Positions 7,997 through 49,332 of a stretch of DNA of 64,000 nt are shown piece after piece. The notes under the pieces were generated by a model. It was not told the DNA's origin, made no database searches, and worked only from the letters and a program-made list of their open reading frames with translations. Position numbers and translations under genes: made by a program. Source of the stretch: BD2-11 clade cluster bacterium bin43 (GTDB lineage Bacteria; Gemmatimonadota; Gemmatimonadetes; Longimicrobiales; Gaopeijiaceae); the NCBI GenBank assembly GCA_002238605.1, contig MPMR01000011.1, positions 1 to 64,000 of the forward strand, given 5' to 3'. Numbering within the stretch: the first letter of the stretch is position 1; each line of letters opens with the position of its first letter.

Positions 7997-9952
7997 TCAC
8001 CCGTCCACGGGTCGCGCGAAGGCCACGAGCGCCGCGTCCGCGCCGCCCCCCGTTGCGATGACCACGAACTGGCGTCCCGACCGCGTCCGGTAGGTCATCG
8101 GGTTCGCGCTGGTGGGATGTGGCGTCGCGCCACGCCAGAGTTCGGCGCCGGTCGCCTTGTCGAACGCGTACAGGTACGGGGCGCCGCCGCCGAGGAACAC
8201 CAACCCCCCCCTGGTCACCATTGCCCCCGAGTTGCCGAGCGTGCCCAGCCGCTCCGGCAGATCGACGCCGCGAAGCAGCGGGTGGGTGCGGATCTCCTCG
8301 CTCCCTTCCCCGAAGGGCACCTTCCACGCGATCTCCCCCGCATTGAGGTCTACCGCAACCAGGTGCGCCCAGGGCGGTTTGGTGAGCGGGATCGGGCCGA
8401 GTTCGCTCTCCGGGGTCGGTGCCGCGCCCGGTCCGCCGGCCTCCCGGAACATCACGAGGGTCGCGCCATAGGGGCAGTTGTTGCTGTATGGGACGTCGAC
8501 GCGCGGGTCGTCGCCCGCATTCGTGCAGATCTGGTTTGGGTCGGCCCTCTCTGTGGTCCGCACGTACAGGAGCCCGGTCTCCGGATCGAACGCCGCTCCG
8601 CCCCAGTTCGCCCCGCCGATCGTGCCCGGCCGCTGGAGCGTCCCCTGGAGGCTCGGGGGCGTGAAGAGCGGGCCCAGCCGGAAGCGCTGCATCTCGGCCA
8701 CCGCGAGCGCATGGATCTCCGGTGTCAGGTCGTTCGCGTCTTCGAGCGACACCCCCTGGCTGCCGAAGGGCGGCGGCCTGGTCGGAAACGGCTGCGTCGG
8801 ATGCAGCACCTCGCCCGGGACGTCCGTCGACGTGTCCACCGGACGCTCCTCGATCGGCCACACCGGCTCGCCGGTCACCCGATCGAACACGTAGGTGAAG
8901 CCATGCTTCGAGACCTGCGCCACCGCGTCGATCTCGCGCCCGTCCACCGTGATCGTCACCAGGTTCGGCGCCGCGCCGAGGTCGTAGTCCCACACGCCAT
9001 GGTGCACGGCCTGGAAGTGCCACCGCCGCTCGCCCGTGCGCGCATCGAGACACAGCAGCGACTCGGCGAACAGATTCACCCCCTTCCGGCGCCCGCCCCA
9101 GTAGTCGCTGCTCGACGTGCTCGTCGGCACGTAGAGGAGGCCCCGCTCGGCATCGAGCGACATCGGCCCCCACACGTTGGCGTGGCCGGTGTAGCGCCAG
9201 GACTCGTCCTCCCAGGTGTCGGCGCCGAAAGCGTCGCTCGATTGCGGGACGGTGAAGAACACCCAGCGCCGCTCGCCCGTGCGGACGTCGAACGCCTGCA
9301 CGGTTCCGGGCGGGTCGAACCGGCGCTGCACCCCGTCGGGCACCCGGCTCCCCACGATCACCTGGTCCTCGAACACCACGGGAGGCGAGGTCTGGTCGAA
9401 CTCGTAGCGGCTGACTTCGCGGCCATGCCCCTCGGTCAGCACGACGCTCCCGCCCTGGCCGAAACCCGTGTCCAGCTCACCGTTCGCGGCGTCGATCGCG
9501 TACAGGCGGTCGCGGCTGTTGAGAAAGACGCGCGCGTCGTCCCCGTCGCTCCACCAGGCGACGCCCCGGTGCTTGAAACCCGTCGGCCCCGCACCGACCG
9601 GTCCGCCCTCGTACGCCCGCGGGTCGAACGTCCAGAGCTCCGCGCCCGACTCGGCGTCGAGCGCCACCACGCGCGTGTACATGGTGGAGAGGTAGAGGAC
9701 GCCGCCGACCAGGATGGGGGTCGCCTGGAAGGGGCCCGGCCGCGTGCCGTACTCCTCGAGGGGCGCCTCTTTCGGCTCCCATTCCCAGGCGATCTCCAAT
9801 TCCGCGACGTTGGCGGCCGTGATCGCCTCCGCCGCCGAGTACTTGGTGTGCGCCTGGTCGGAGCCGACGAAGGGCCAGCCGGGCCCGGCGTCCGGTTGCG
9901 GGGTGCATGCGGCGGCGGCCAGCAGAGCCGCGATGGCAACAACTCGTCTCAT
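7997..9952 (-). CDS. PQQ-dependent quinoprotein dehydrogenase, periplasmic lipoprotein
   Basis: A 651-residue eight-bladed propeller dehydrogenase of the pyrroloquinoline-quinone family, close in layout to the soluble domain of membrane glucose dehydrogenase. It would oxidise an alcohol or sugar in the periplasm. The N-terminus is a lipoprotein signal (AALLAAAAC, Cys at about 16). Tryptophan-docking repeats of the type AxDAxxGxxxWxF recur (ALDAESGAELWTF; AFDVRTGERRWVF; CLDARTGERRWHF; AFDKATGAELWRG). Unlike classical membrane glucose dehydrogenase it has no N-terminal membrane domain, and no cytochrome c domain is seen. Its ATG overlaps the SulP stop by 4 nt and DctQ starts 15 nt after its end. 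The exact substrate is not deducible. Confidence 0.9.
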   Translation of the reverse strand: MRRVVAIAALLAAAACTPQPDAGPGWPFVGSDQAHTKYSAAEAITAANVAELEIAWEWEPKEAPLEEYGTRPGPFQATPILVGGVLYLSTMYTRVVALDAESGAELWTFDPRAYEGGPVGAGPTGFKHRGVAWWSDGDDARVFLNSRDRLYAIDAANGELDTGFGQGGSVVLTEGHGREVSRYEFDQTSPPVVFEDQVIVGSRVPDGVQRRFDPPGTVQAFDVRTGERRWVFFTVPQSSDAFGADTWEDESWRYTGHANVWGPMSLDAERGLLYVPTSTSSSDYWGGRRKGVNLFAESLLCLDARTGERRWHFQAVHHGVWDYDLGAAPNLVTITVDGREIDAVAQVSKHGFTYVFDRVTGEPVWPIEERPVDTSTDVPGEVLHPTQPFPTRPPPFGSQGVSLEDANDLTPEIHALAVAEMQRFRLGPLFTPPSLQGTLQRPGTIGGANWGGAAFDPETGLLYVRTTERADPNQICTNAGDDPRVDVPYSNNCPYGATLVMFREAGGPGAAPTPESELGPIPLTKPPWAHLVAVDLNAGEIAWKVPFGEGSEEIRTHPLLRGVDLPERLGTLGNSGAMVTRGGLVFLGGGAPYLYAFDKATGAELWRGATPHPTSANPMTYRTRSGRQFVVIATGGGADAALVAFARPVDG

Positions 9953-43410: not shown

Positions 43411-43439
43411 TTGCGACTCCCGCTTGTCTACCCTATACT
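43411..43439 (+). promoter_or_regulatory. Promoter for the DUF1592 operon
   Basis: TTGCGA (43411-43416), 17 bp, and TATACT (43434-43439), a strong -10 match. Transcription would start near 43446, giving a leader of about 55 nt to ATG 43502. Confidence 0.6.
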
Positions 43440-43501: not shown

Positions 43502-45931
43502 ATGAGAACACTCGTCATCGGAACGGCTCTGGGTGCGGCGCTGACTCTGCTTGGCGACCCCCCTTCCCTTCCTTCCGGGGAATCCCGACCTGCAGGTTCG
43601 GGCGGCGCCAGCGCGGCTTACGCGTCATCGATCGAATCCCCGGCCCTGACCCGGGTGGTGGTCCAGTACTGCCAGGTCTGCCACAACGACGCGCTGCTCA
43701 CGGGCAACGTCTCGCTTCAGGGATTCGACGTGGAACGCGCCCCTGAGCTGGCGGAGACCGCGGAACGCATGATCCGCAAGCTGCGCGCGGGCATGATGCC
43801 GCCCCCCGGGATGCCGCGCCCCTCGGGCGACACCCTCCAGGTGCTGGTGGAGACGCTGGAGCAGCTGGTCGACGAAACCGCCGCCGCCCGCCCCAATCCC
43901 GGGATCCGGCGCTTCCAGAGGCTGAGCCGCGCGGAGTACGAGCGCGTCATCCGCGACATGCTTGACCTCGAGATCGACGCCGGACGCTGGCTCCCCGCCG
44001 ACGTGCTTCTCGGCAGCTTCGACAACCTGTCCGCGGCCCAGGGGCTGTCGACGACGCTGCTGGCCGCCTATATGCGCGCCGCAACCGAAGTGAGCCGCCT
44101 CGCGGTGGGCAACCCGGAGGCTGTTCCCGTGTCGGCCAAGTACACCAACCCGATCGAGGTGTCGCAGCACGCATGGGACCACATCGAGGGGACCCCGTTC
44201 GGCACGCGCGGTGGGATGGTGGTCACCCACGATTTCCCGGCCGACGGCGAGTACGTCCTGACCGTGGAGACCCTGTTCGGACAAGGCACCGGCTTCGAGG
44301 ACCTCGACATCTCCGTCGACGGTGAGGGCGTGGCGGTCATCCCGATCCCGCACAACGGCGAGAGCGGCGTGCCGCTCAAGACCGATCCCGTCTTCGTGCG
44401 CGCGGGCCAGCGCCAGGTGGCGGCGGCGTTCGTGCGGCGCATGGACGGTCCCTACGACGACCGCTTCAGCCCCTTCGACTGGTCGTTCGTGGGCGGCGAG
44501 GACGCCCAGCAGTGGGCCAACTACGGCATCACCGCGCTTCCGCACCTCTCGAACCTGATGATCACCGGGCCCACGGCCGTCGCCGGCGTCTCCGACACGC
44601 CGACCCGGGACAGGATCTTCAGCTGCCGGCCCGCGTCCGAGTCCGAGGAGCGGCCCTGCGCCGAGTCCATCGTGGCTCGGCTCGCGGAACAGGCCTACCG
44701 CCGCCCTGTCAACGACCAGGACCTGCAGGGGCTGATGGCCTTCTACGACCAGGGGTCGGACGGCGGCGGGTTCGAGATCGGCGTGCGCACCGCGCTCCAG
44801 GCACTGCTCGCCAGCCCTTCGTTCGTGTTCCGGCTCGAGCGGGAGCCGGCCGGCCGGGGTGAAGGCGAGAACTACTACCTGAACGACCTCGATCTGGCTT
44901 CCCGGCTGTCCTTCCTCCTCTGGGCCTCGGCGCCCGACCAGGAGCTGCTCGATGTCGCCGCCCGCGGACGGCTTTCCGACGACGCCGTGCTCGAAGCGCA
45001 GGTGCGGCGCATGCTCGCCGATCCGCGCTCCGACGCGCTGGGCACCCGCTTCGCGCATCAGTGGCTGCGCCTGCAGGACGCCGCCAAGAACAACCCGGAG
45101 CCGTACCTCTATCCCGATTTCACCGGCCAGTTGAGCGACGACCTGGTGCGGGAAACCGAGCTCTTCTTCAACCACCTGGTGCAGGAAGACCGCAGCCTGC
45201 TCGAGTTCTTCAGCGCGGATTACACCTTCCTGAACGAGCGCCTGGCGCGGCACTACGGGATCGACGGCGTCACGGGCGACGATTACCGCCTGGTCACGTA
45301 TCCCGACGACAAGCGGCGCGGCATCCTCGGGCACGGGAGCGTCCTGCTGCTGACCTCGATGTCGGCGCGCACCTCTCCGGTTCTGCGAGGGAAGTGGGTC
45401 ATGGAGGTCCTGATGGGTACGCCTCCGCCGCATCCTCCGCCCAACGTTCCCGCCTTCGACCAGACCGAGGGAACGGCGGACGGCCGCCGCCTCACCACGC
45501 GCGAGCGCATGGAGCGTCACCGCGCCAATCCGACCTGCAACGCTTGTCATCGCTTCATGGATCCCATCGGCCTCGCGCTCGACAACTACGACGTGACCGG
45601 CCGCTGGCGCATCCGCGAGAACATGGTGGCGCTGGACACGCGCGGCGACTTCTACGACGGAACGCCCATTACCACGCCGGCCGAACTGACCCAGGTCATC
45701 CTCAAGCGTCCGATCCCGCTGGTGCGCAATTTCACGGCGCATCTGCTGGCGTACGCGATCGGCCGCCCCGTGGAGTACTTCGATCAACCAACCATTCGAG
45801 CCATCGCGCGCGACGCGGAGGCCGAAGGATACAGCATGTCCGCCTTTGTTCTGGGGATCGTGAAGAGCGATCCGTTCCGGATGAGACGAACCGAGGCGAC
45901 CGCCGACACGGAAGCCAACCAGGGAGTGTAA
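43502..45931 (+). CDS. DUF1592/DUF1588-type cytochrome c-like protein
   Basis: An 809-residue exported protein of the Planctomycetes-type DUF1587-1595-1592-1588-1585 set. A CxxCH haem motif occurs near the N-terminus (CQVCH, 57-61) and another near the C-terminus (CNACH, about 679-683). Landmarks are RVIRDMLDLEIDAG (DUF1587), LSFLLWASAPDQELLD (DUF1592), TSPVLRGKWVMEVLMG (DUF1588) and YDVTGRWR plus LLAYAIGRPVEY (DUF1585). It has a predicted signal peptide. The biochemical role of the family is not established. ATG 43502 has GGAGG upstream. It is the first of three genes with DUF1552 and ankyrin proteins. Confidence 0.9.
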   Translation: MRTLVIGTALGAALTLLGDPPSLPSGESRPAGSGGASAAYASSIESPALTRVVVQYCQVCHNDALLTGNVSLQGFDVERAPELAETAERMIRKLRAGMMPPPGMPRPSGDTLQVLVETLEQLVDETAAARPNPGIRRFQRLSRAEYERVIRDMLDLEIDAGRWLPADVLLGSFDNLSAAQGLSTTLLAAYMRAATEVSRLAVGNPEAVPVSAKYTNPIEVSQHAWDHIEGTPFGTRGGMVVTHDFPADGEYVLTVETLFGQGTGFEDLDISVDGEGVAVIPIPHNGESGVPLKTDPVFVRAGQRQVAAAFVRRMDGPYDDRFSPFDWSFVGGEDAQQWANYGITALPHLSNLMITGPTAVAGVSDTPTRDRIFSCRPASESEERPCAESIVARLAEQAYRRPVNDQDLQGLMAFYDQGSDGGGFEIGVRTALQALLASPSFVFRLEREPAGRGEGENYYLNDLDLASRLSFLLWASAPDQELLDVAARGRLSDDAVLEAQVRRMLADPRSDALGTRFAHQWLRLQDAAKNNPEPYLYPDFTGQLSDDLVRETELFFNHLVQEDRSLLEFFSADYTFLNERLARHYGIDGVTGDDYRLVTYPDDKRRGILGHGSVLLLTSMSARTSPVLRGKWVMEVLMGTPPPHPPPNVPAFDQTEGTADGRRLTTRERMERHRANPTCNACHRFMDPIGLALDNYDVTGRWRIRENMVALDTRGDFYDGTPITTPAELTQVILKRPIPLVRNFTAHLLAYAIGRPVEYFDQPTIRAIARDAEAEGYSMSAFVLGIVKSDPFRMRRTEATADTEANQGV

Positions 45932-45937
45932 GCGACC

Positions 45938-47368
45938 ATGAACTTCATTACGGGAAAGCACCTTTCTCGCCGTACCTTCCTTCGCGGGATGGGCACTACG
46001 GTTGCGCTCCCCCTGCTGGACGCAATGGTCCCCGCCGGCAGGCTCTGGCGGGACCGCGCCGCCAGCGACTTCACGCGCTTCGTGGGCATCGAAGAATCGA
46101 TGGGATGCGCGGGCGGGAGCGACTGGGGAGACCAGCAGTTCCTGTTCGCGCCCGAGAAGGTCGGCCGCGACTTCGAGTTCGCGGCGACCAGCCAGCTCAA
46201 GCCCCTCGAGCCCTACCGCGACTACCTGACGGTGATCAGCAACACCGACTCGCGGATGGCGGAGGCGTACCGCGCGGAGGAGATCGGCGGCGACCACGAC
46301 CGCACCACCGCCGTCTTCCTGACGCAGGCCCATCCCAAGCAGACCCAGGGATCGGACGTCTATCTCGGGACCTCGCTGGACCAGTTGCACGCGCGCCGCT
46401 TCGGCCAGGACACCGCACTTCCCTCGCTGGAGCTCACCACCGAGTCGATCGACCGCGGGGGCGGATGCGCCTACAACTACCACTGCGCCTACACGACCTC
46501 GGTGGCGTGGGCCTCCCCGACCCAGCCGCTTCCGGCCATCCGCGAGCCGCGCGCGGTCTTCGAGCAGCTCTTCGGAGCGGGTGACTCCGCCGCCGACCGC
46601 GCCGCCCGCCGCCGCACGGACCGCAGCGTCATCGACTGGATCGCCGCCGAGGTGGCGCGCCTGAAGAGAGAGCTGGGGGCCGTCGACCGCCGGGCCATGG
46701 ACGAGTACCTGACCCACATCCGCGAGCTGGAGCGCCGCATCGAGCTGGTCGAGGAGCGCAACACGAGCGGCGAGGAGCGGGCGATGCCGGAGGCTCCCTC
46801 CGGGGTCCCGGATTCCTGGGAAGAGCACATGGAACTCATGTTCGATCTCCAGCTGCTTGCGCTGCAGACCGACATGACCCGGGTCATCACCTTCAAGATC
46901 GGCTTCGACCAGTCGAACCGGACGTTCCCGGTCAGCGGCACCAACAAGTCGTTCCACGGCGCGTCGCACCACGGCAACGTCCCCGCCGACATCATGGACT
47001 TCAACCTCATCAATACCCACAGGCTGAGCCTGATGGGGTACTTCCTGGAGAAGATGAAGAACACGATGGAGGGCGACGCTTCGCTGCTGGACAAGACCGC
47101 CATCGTCTGGGGTTCCTCGATGGGCGACCCCAACCTGCACAACCACCGCCGCTGCCCGCTCATCCTGATGGGGCACGCCAACGGCGCCCTGGAAGGCAAC
47201 ATGCACTTGCGGGCGCCCAAGGGAACGCCGATGGCCGACGCGTTCGTAAGCCTGATGCAGGGCATCGGACACGACGACCTGCGGTCGTTCGGGGACAGCG
47301 TGAGCCCGTTCCCGCTCTCGTTCCCCAGAGGCGGTTTTGCCGACGCGCTGCGGGAGGCCGGATCGTGA
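45938..47368 (+). CDS. DUF1552 protein, TAT-exported
   Basis: A 476-residue protein with a twin-arginine-like signal (LSRRTFLRGMGTTVALPLLD), consistent with export in folded form. It has the DUF1552 body (FVGIEESMGCAGGSDWGD; TQAHPKQTQGSDVYLGTS; SMGDPNLHNHRRCPLILMG), which is regularly found directly after DUF1592/1588 genes and may fold like a sulfatase/phosphatase relative. Its function is unknown. It starts 6 nt after the previous stop, and its own stop overlaps the ankyrin gene's GTG start by 4 nt. Confidence 0.9.
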   Translation: MNFITGKHLSRRTFLRGMGTTVALPLLDAMVPAGRLWRDRAASDFTRFVGIEESMGCAGGSDWGDQQFLFAPEKVGRDFEFAATSQLKPLEPYRDYLTVISNTDSRMAEAYRAEEIGGDHDRTTAVFLTQAHPKQTQGSDVYLGTSLDQLHARRFGQDTALPSLELTTESIDRGGGCAYNYHCAYTTSVAWASPTQPLPAIREPRAVFEQLFGAGDSAADRAARRRTDRSVIDWIAAEVARLKRELGAVDRRAMDEYLTHIRELERRIELVEERNTSGEERAMPEAPSGVPDSWEEHMELMFDLQLLALQTDMTRVITFKIGFDQSNRTFPVSGTNKSFHGASHHGNVPADIMDFNLINTHRLSLMGYFLEKMKNTMEGDASLLDKTAIVWGSSMGDPNLHNHRRCPLILMGHANGALEGNMHLRAPKGTPMADAFVSLMQGIGHDDLRSFGDSVSPFPLSFPRGGFADALREAGS

Positions 47369-49332
47369 GGGCCCCCGACGAGGCGGTGAAGCGCGGCCGC
47401 ATGGGCGTGCTGGGCGCGACCCTGCTCCTGGCGTCGCTGGCCGCCTCTGTTGAGGCTCAGGATGCCGGGCTGATGGGCGCGGCAAGGCAGGGCGACGCGG
47501 AAGCGGTTCAGACGCTGCTCGCCGGAGGGGCGGACCCGAGTCAGGCGCAGGGCGACGGCATGACCGCGTTGCACATGGCCGCGCTCGAGGGCCACGGCGA
47601 TGTCGTGGACGTGCTGCTGGCCGCGGGTGCCGAGGTCGGCGCGACGACCCGCATCGGGGCGTACACGCCACTCCACCTGGCCAGCCAGGCCGGACACGGG
47701 GCGGTGGTGCGCTCTCTCCTCGAGAGGGGCGCGGATGCGAACCTCGCCACCACCAATAGCGGGGCCACCCCGCTCCACCTGGCCGCGCGCGTAGTGGCCG
47801 GCGAGGACGCGGTAGCCGCGTTGCTGGAACACGGTGCCGACGTCAACGCGCGAGAGGGCTCCGCGGGGCAGACCCCATTGATGTTTGCGGCCTCGTACAG
47901 CCGGACACCGGCGATTCAGGTACTCCTGAAGCACGGAGCCGACCCGAACGTGGCCACCAGAGTGGTGGACGTGCTGCACAGCGTGGCCATCGACCGCGAG
48001 GCCAGCCAGCTCCTGCGCGACCGCATCGAAGGGCTCCGCTTCGAAGCCGAACCGGGCACGGAGCCGGAATTGACCCCCGCACAGGTGCAGGAAGCGATCG
48101 CCGCCCAGCGCGAGTTCCTGCGCGCCGACCACGCGCAGCGGCAGTTCAATGCCGACGATCTGGTCCAGCACCGCGCGGACTACCCCGGCGGCCCGCCGCT
48201 CGCGCGTCCTCCCTACCGGGAGACGCTGGTGGGCATGACCGGCGGCATGACCGCGCTGCTGCACGCCGCTCGCGAGGGCCATGTCGAAGCGGCACTCGCG
48301 CTGCTGGACGGCGGAGCCGACATCGACCAGGTCAGCGGCGACGGCACCAGCCCGCTGCTGATGACCATCATCAACGGCCAGTTCGACCTGGCGATGGAGC
48401 TGGTCGAGCATGGCGCCGATCCCGACCGGGCCGCCGACACCGACGGCATCTCCCCGGTGTTCGCGGTGCTGCAGACCCACTGGGCGCCCAAGTCCAACTA
48501 CCCGCAGCCGCGCGCGCAGGACAACGAGCAGACCGAATACCTGGAGTTGCTGCAGGCGCTTCTGGACGCGGGCGCGGACCCGAACGTCCAGCTCAACACG
48601 CACCTGTGGTACTGGGAGTTCGGCCTCACCAAGATGGGCATCAACCTGGAGGGCGCCACGCCCTTCTACCGGGCCGCCTTCGCGCAGGACATCGAAGCCA
48701 TGAAGATGCTGGCCGCCCACGGCGCCGACCCCAACATCCCCACGCGCTGGCCGGCGGTGGGCATGCGGGAGCGCCGCCAGCAGGACGGGCGCCAGCAGGA
48801 GGATTCAGGCCTTCCCTGGATTCCCGAAGACTCGTACAACGCGTACCCCATCCATGCCGCAGCCGGTGGCGGCTGGCAGGGGCTCGGGGCGTTCAGCGTG
48901 CGCGCAGTCCCCGACAACTTCCTCAACGCGGTCAAGTACCTGGTCGACGAGCACGGGGCGGATGTGAATCTGGCCGACTCCTGGCTGTACCGGCCGATCC
49001 ACTACGCCGCGGCCCGTGGCGACAACGAACTCATCATGTACCTGGTCGAGCAGGGCGCGGACGTGACCGCCATCACCCGGCTGGGTCAGTCCGCGGCCGA
49101 CATGGCGAGGGGCGGACGCTCCGGGTTCTTCGTACGGGTCGCCTACCCGGAAACGGAGGAGTTGCTGGTGAACCTCGGCTCCAGCCGCGAGTGCGAGCAC
49201 ACCCACTTCCTGGACACGGGCGACTTCTGCGAGGGTCTCGGCGTCTTCGACCCGTGGAAGGAAAAGGGGATTCCGCAGACGACGGAGGCCGTGGTGCCGC
49301 CTCCCCCTCCGCCGGGGGGAAACCGGAGGTAG
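47365..49332 (+). CDS. Secreted ankyrin-repeat protein
   Basis: A 655-residue protein with a signal peptide (LGATLLLASLAASVEAQ, about 14-31) followed by about ten ankyrin repeats (G-x-T-P-L-H-L-A-x; e.g. GAYTPLHLASQAGHGAVV; GDGMTALHMAALEGHG). Repeats are split by a 100-residue insert around 215-290, and the final repeat is followed by a Pro-rich tail. GTG 47365 overlaps the DUF1552 stop (GTGA), so translation is coupled. Exported ankyrin proteins usually bind a protein partner; the two exported products of the operon are obvious candidates. Partnership is inference. Confidence 0.88.
   Translation: MRAPDEAVKRGRMGVLGATLLLASLAASVEAQDAGLMGAARQGDAEAVQTLLAGGADPSQAQGDGMTALHMAALEGHGDVVDVLLAAGAEVGATTRIGAYTPLHLASQAGHGAVVRSLLERGADANLATTNSGATPLHLAARVVAGEDAVAALLEHGADVNAREGSAGQTPLMFAASYSRTPAIQVLLKHGADPNVATRVVDVLHSVAIDREASQLLRDRIEGLRFEAEPGTEPELTPAQVQEAIAAQREFLRADHAQRQFNADDLVQHRADYPGGPPLARPPYRETLVGMTGGMTALLHAAREGHVEAALALLDGGADIDQVSGDGTSPLLMTIINGQFDLAMELVEHGADPDRAADTDGISPVFAVLQTHWAPKSNYPQPRAQDNEQTEYLELLQALLDAGADPNVQLNTHLWYWEFGLTKMGINLEGATPFYRAAFAQDIEAMKMLAAHGADPNIPTRWPAVGMRERRQQDGRQQEDSGLPWIPEDSYNAYPIHAAAGGGWQGLGAFSVRAVPDNFLNAVKYLVDEHGADVNLADSWLYRPIHYAAARGDNELIMYLVEQGADVTAITRLGQSAADMARGGRSGFFVRVAYPETEELLVNLGSSRECEHTHFLDTGDFCEGLGVFDPWKEKGIPQTTEAVVPPPPPPGGNRR

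Follow-up and report, generated by a model that had tools for sequence, protein, structure and literature searches.

A gene for a DUF1592-type cytochrome placed directly before a DUF1552 gene is a recurrent but poorly understood arrangement in bacterial genomes. In the 64,000-nucleotide stretch of Gemmatimonadota DNA analyzed here (the window; contig MPMR01000011.1), such a pair is followed by a gene for an exported ankyrin-repeat protein, raising the question of whether this third gene truly belongs to the pair and, if so, what the three products might do together. We refer to the genes as CYT (cytochrome), HX (DUF1552 protein), and ANK (ankyrin-repeat protein). A PSCyt3/PSD gene beside a DUF1552 gene has been noted in Rhodopirellula and Verrucomicrobia, in many copies per genome and uncharacterized (PMC5615132, PMC2754498), in agreement with an earlier sequence-only reading of the locus that called the pair widespread and its role undescribed. 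The planctomycete pair shares with the trio the Pfam domains of CYT and HX, the gene order, the multicopy state, and an association with carbohydrate-binding modules (CBM), CBM domains on PSCyt genes having been noted in Verrucomicrobia (PMC5615132). An ankyrin third gene, however, is not described there.

The three genes are arranged CYT, HX, ANK on the forward strand (Table 1), and the coordinates, strand, order, and short overlap of HX with ANK given in the sequence-only reading are confirmed on the sequence. Its single good promoter also stands as a prediction, in that the one match found upstream is the sole such site 5′ of the operon, compared with a mean of 0.2 when the 7.2 kb scanned was shuffled. 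The operon scan found no terminator-like site. The proposed export of all three products fits their N termini, which read as Sec-like signals in CYT and ANK and include a twin-arginine (Tat) motif in HX. A matrixin-type metallopeptidase is encoded upstream and an AAA_14/DUF4143 ATPase downstream (Pfam), neither with an evident tie to the trio. Elsewhere in the window, a PQQ-dependent dehydrogenase (PF01011, E = 6e-193; 8000-9952, reverse strand) is a possible periplasmic electron source.

Table 1. Features of the CYT-HX-ANK operon, in window coordinates.
Feature	Coordinates	Strand	Details and basis
Predicted sigma-70-like promoter, TTGCGA-17-TATACT	43411..43439	+	9/12 versus consensus (consensus scan)
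CYT	43502..45931	+	ATG start 43502, stop 45931, 809 aa; two-heme exported protein; Pfam; 12 genomic copies
First heme c site, CQVCH, residues 57-61	43670..43684	+	Sequence; invariant in 73 aligned relatives
Embedded beta-sandwich like CBM6/35/36, residues 204-361	44111..44584	+	AlphaFold model, VIA-align
Second heme c site, CNACH, residues 679-683	45536..45550	+	Cys, Cys, and His invariant in 73 aligned relatives
HX	45938..47368	+	476 aa; DUF1552 / HXXSHH protein; PF07586, E = 4e-82
Twin-arginine motif SRRTFLR, residues 10-16	45965..45985	+	RR kept in >160 of 165 HX sequences
HGASHH, the HxxSHH motif (H340, S343, H344, H345; residues 340-345)	46955..46972	+	H340 and H344 in every HX having the column
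ANK	47365..49332	+	GTG start 47365, stop 49332, 655 aa; exported ankyrin-repeat protein; PF12796 and PF00023
GTGA, 4 nt shared by the end of HX and the beginning of ANK	47365..47368	+	Sequence
C-x11-C near the ANK C terminus (CEHTHFLDTGDFC)	49192..49230	+	Alignments; occupies the place of the terminal NNxxCxxC of relatives

The genome to which the window belongs (4.47 Mb, 65 contigs) encodes 12 PF07631 and 12 PF07586 genes, and an ANK paralog, 42 to 60% identical to that of the window, lies directly 3′ of HX in all 12 cases. CYT, HX, and ANK are contiguous in 10 of the 12 modules; CYT is displaced in those on C28 and C45. Five of the modules fall within 60 kb of one contig (C38 of genome G000, 76-136 kb, L042-L045), and the DNA between them encodes TonB receptors as well as an MsrP-like molybdopterin oxidoreductase (PF00174). 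Across a sample of 61 genomes of the phylum, with ANK presence scored at E < 1e-30, HX and ANK are found together in the same 21 genomes and neither in the other 40; CYT is present in those 21 and in one more. The probability of this HX/ANK co-occurrence, 1/C(61,21) = 8e-17, assumes independence of genomes, which does not hold. By coordinates, ANK lies within 3 kb downstream of 84 of the 88 HX genes of the phylum, and CYT lies upstream of 81. Four HX genes lack an adjacent ANK: one because a contig break divides it, and three that are diverged or unexamined HX; at one of these three loci (L246), ANK is found two genes further downstream. Chance adjacency of ANK is ruled out by these linkage and co-occurrence counts, and the earlier suggestion that the ankyrin gene is a true third member is borne out by them.

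The paralogs of this one genome also allow coevolution to be assessed with species history removed, using Mantel correlations of distances among the 12 copies. The correlations are strong for CYT-HX (r = 0.72, p = 5e-5) and HX-ANK (r = 0.77, p = 1.5e-4) and weaker for CYT-ANK (r = 0.49, p = 0.008); with the closest pair (window and C28) left out, they become 0.74 (p = 5e-5), 0.50 (p = 0.026), and 0.28 (p = 0.17), respectively. CYT and HX clearly evolve together, and ANK evolves with them more loosely. No fused genes among the three families occur in the fetched loci. That CYT, HX, and ANK constitute one exported functional unit is well supported because gene neighborhood, co-occurrence, and co-duplication all point to it.

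Beyond the phylum, the association depends on the branch of DUF1552. A genome-wide scan, biased toward close relatives, returned 79 loci, mostly from Gemmatimonadota, together with Acidobacteriota records and two labeled Gammaproteobacteria, and nearly all loci that reach far enough keep the CYT-HX-ANK order. Two of them (L155, L157) read CYT-HX-CYT-HX-ANK, with a single ANK per tandem array; at a third locus (L245), a tandem CYT-HX-CYT-HX has no detected ANK just after the array. Among 80 Acidobacteriota genomes, six carry window-type HX alone and all six have ANK, which is missing from four genomes with outlying-type HX alone and from 69 without HX. One genome of this set (G144, 4.8 Mb) contains at least 24 HX genes, mostly of the outlying type, and has ANK; some of its DUF1552 genes have an ankyrin gene and some do not, a natural comparison for what ANK contributes. 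The outlying branch comprises sequences from Planctomyces, Sphingobium, and some Acidobacteriota, mostly without ANK. The CYT-HX pair stands without ANK in Planctomyces (L187) and on two Sphingobium plasmids (L188, L189), and in the Planctomyces plasmid copy a DUF1080 gene follows HX where the trio has ANK. A Novosphingobium plasmid (L186) bears a diverged trio (37-39% identity) whose 444-aa ankyrin gene overlaps HX. When those with short downstream sequence are set aside from 165 HX sequences, ANK accompanies 119 of 123 window-type but 7 of 29 outlying-type genes. On the HX tree (n = 103), the ANK label needs at least nine changes versus 21.8 in shuffles, and the association is therefore strongly clustered: it is nearly fixed in one HX clade and patchy elsewhere. 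The sequence-only reading, which proposed a survey of gene order across phyla, would have been refuted had most homologous loci lacked ANK or carried it elsewhere; this is not so in the DUF1552 branch of the window, but outside that branch CYT-HX is often found without ANK. Two records with Gemmatimonadota-like modules, labeled Gammaproteobacteria (L168, VXNP01000154.1; its genome has 12 DUF1552 copies, like that of the window) and Euryarchaeota (L146, PBUX01000064.1), are probably mislabeled MAGs.

What the unit might do is suggested first by CYT. Its domains DUF1587-DUF1595-DUF1592-DUF1588-DUF1585 (PSD3, PSD5, PSD4, PSCyt3, PSD2; PF07626, PF07637, PF07631, PF07627, PF07624) all exceed the Pfam gathering score, and the label of DUF1592/1588 cytochrome given earlier is justified by its two CxxCH motifs, which recur in each of the 12 copies of the genome. 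M99, within a Met-Pro-Pro stretch (M99-P100-P101) that is invariant in the 73 aligned relatives, is likely the axial heme methionine. In the AlphaFold model (mean pLDDT 85.7), the embedded beta-sandwich matches CBM6/35/36 domains by VIA-align (best Z 9.6, 109 residues aligned, rmsd 3.1), a resemblance at the level of a shared fold only; jelly rolls of other function score Z 8-9, below the CBM match, and Foldseek gave no match under E 1e-3. The structure search was dominated by this domain and barely covered the helical heme parts, and comparison of a CYT sequence profile with solved structures produced no credible match.

The makeup of CYT recalls Cbp2D of Cellvibrio japonicus (X183-DUF1587-X132 with CBM2), which, in the passages of PMC8981238 that describe it, likewise combines two single-heme c (CxxCH) domains, DUF1587, export, and carbohydrate binding, and whose X183 heme domain reduces LPMOs. 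A CBM2 protein of Cellvibrio has, moreover, been annotated as DUF1592 (PMC6004670). By this analogy, CYT could donate electrons to a separate secreted enzyme, as proposed for Cbp2D and LPMOs, with HX and ANK helping to dock or assemble the partners. We regard such a role as unlikely. The CBM2 and YceI domains of Cbp2D are not among the Pfam matches of CYT, a search of the genome for the AA10 family of LPMOs (PF03067), the one LPMO family covered, found no match, and the LPMO partnership proposed for Cbp2D comes, in those passages, with no reported counterpart of HX or ANK.

HX is a DUF1552 protein by its profile match and its HGASHH motif, and its fold is predicted to be that of the alkaline phosphatases and sulfatases. 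Both Foldseek and VIA-align place the best model (mean pLDDT 78, pTM 0.82) in the alkaline phosphatase superfamily, which includes sulfatases, NPPs, and choline sulfatase. The VIA-align scores are about 15-16 over ~250 residues (choline sulfatase: Z 16.3, 258 aligned, rmsd 3.9), and the Foldseek TM-scores are low, from 0.33 to 0.39. A sequence profile of HX gave no credible match to solved structures and nothing useful against two sulfatase-like proteins of the genome. Unlike the enzymes of this superfamily, HX lacks an SDHG-like motif in all 165 sequences, which weakens a hydrolase role; at what would be the position of that motif, window-type HX has GS(P/A/S)MGD. Invariant histidines are found instead: H120, H340, H344, and H401 are almost invariant in both HX types, as is H423 in the window type, and the strictly kept polar residues are H120, D148, H340, H344, H401, D250, and E265. 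From this pattern, HX probably carries a metal site rich in histidine rather than the usual Asp/His one, and its export by the Tat route would fit loading of a cofactor in the cytoplasm. The missing motif is also what one would see if HX were not an enzyme and the unit served mainly as a structural element or in assembly of surface proteins, binding chiefly through ANK, a role to which ankyrin repeats, which usually bind proteins, would be suited. We consider this rather improbable given that the strictly kept polar residues suggest an active or metal site.

ANK consists of many ankyrin repeats (PF12796, PF00023) in two blocks separated by a variable linker. All 72 complete ANK relatives in the 79-locus set have a CxxC terminus, 67 of them as NNxxCxxC, and the subclade of the window protein (window, L041, L084, L086) has C-x11-C in its stead, together with a conserved THF..TGDFC stretch. 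These paired cysteines near the C terminus may contribute a disulfide, thiol, or metal site. An exported ankyrin protein encoded with a heme protein has a precedent in AnkB of Pseudomonas aeruginosa, a periplasmic protein needed by the KatB catalase, as cited in PMC3091734. A corresponding function for the trio, in which ANK would support a heme protein in defense against oxidative stress, seems very improbable to us, in that the operon encodes no catalase or peroxidase domain (Pfam) and the diverged copies, at least 24 in one genome, better suit varied substrates. Most relatives of ANK also end in a cysteine pair, a further difference from AnkB.

Neighboring genes bear on the substrate and on the fate of electrons. 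The genes of the C28 module run in the order CYT-TonB receptor-SusD-HX-ANK along a single strand; in the C45 module a TonB receptor and SusD lie immediately 5′ of HX. A TonB receptor is located within 6 kb of eight of the 12 modules (19% expected for each, p = 4e-4), although five modules share one contig; at 3 kb the count is four of 12 (p = 0.065). Outside the genus, TonB/SusD neighbors are rare, with BLAST probes detecting them at 2 of 79 loci, and a general tight link of the trio to SusCD is not supported there. Genes for a cytochrome c and for a cytochrome of the b561/b6 type come after CYT-HX on the two Sphingobium plasmids, hinting at electron transfer to the membrane. The same plasmid pairs lie near TonB receptor, efflux, Rieske, and monooxygenase or acyl-CoA dehydrogenase genes, and amidase and amidohydrolase genes neighbor modules of the window's genome, as might be expected if each copy took part in the catabolic oxidation of a small hydrophobic or aromatic compound rather than in attack on glycans. 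This account is doubtful: no copies are more distant than those of Sphingobium (23-26% identity), which have no ANK, and the carbohydrate-binding-like domain of CYT points to sugars.

Our preferred reading, which we put forward tentatively and rate at somewhat below an even chance, is that the trio forms an extracytoplasmic redox or hydrolase complex that is directed at a glycan-like substrate and organized by ANK. The assembly of the complex and its metal site are our inference, as are the kind of substrate, the way in which electrons flow, and what ANK does; on this view it would work as follows. CYT would be a two-heme c-type cytochrome holding a carbohydrate-binding-like domain, and HX, exported folded via Tat, would bear its histidine-rich metal site on an alkaline-phosphatase-like fold. 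ANK, in the periplasm or at the surface, would hold CYT and HX together or present the substrate. A glycan-like or similar organic substrate would be bound outside the cytoplasm through the CYT beta-sandwich and attacked by HX, with CYT, and electrons would pass from the CYT hemes to the respiratory chain. Differing substrates for each copy would explain the 12 diverged paralogs. A bolder version, which is doubtful, would make DUF1552 a histidine-metal redox or lytic enzyme on an alkaline phosphatase fold, which together with a two-heme, carbohydrate-binding CYT and a terminal-dithiol ANK would form a new class of complex for the oxidative breakdown of polymers outside the cytoplasm.

The CYT-HX pair itself was already known. 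An ankyrin association of DUF1592/DUF1552 genes was not found in the open-access literature, to which the search was confined (subscription papers lay outside it) and where no paper combined any two of DUF1592, DUF1552, and ankyrin, and within that scope the claim that the trio is undescribed holds; the conserved third subunit ANK, the predicted DUF1552 fold, and the sugar-binding-like domain of CYT are new here. Some environmental bacteria contain dozens of PSCyt/PSD and DUF1552 genes, and the question of their role dates back to the Rhodopirellula genome. A third subunit, a predicted DUF1552 fold, and a sugar-binding-like domain together turn these genes into a defined candidate complex, open to expression, pull-down, and assay.
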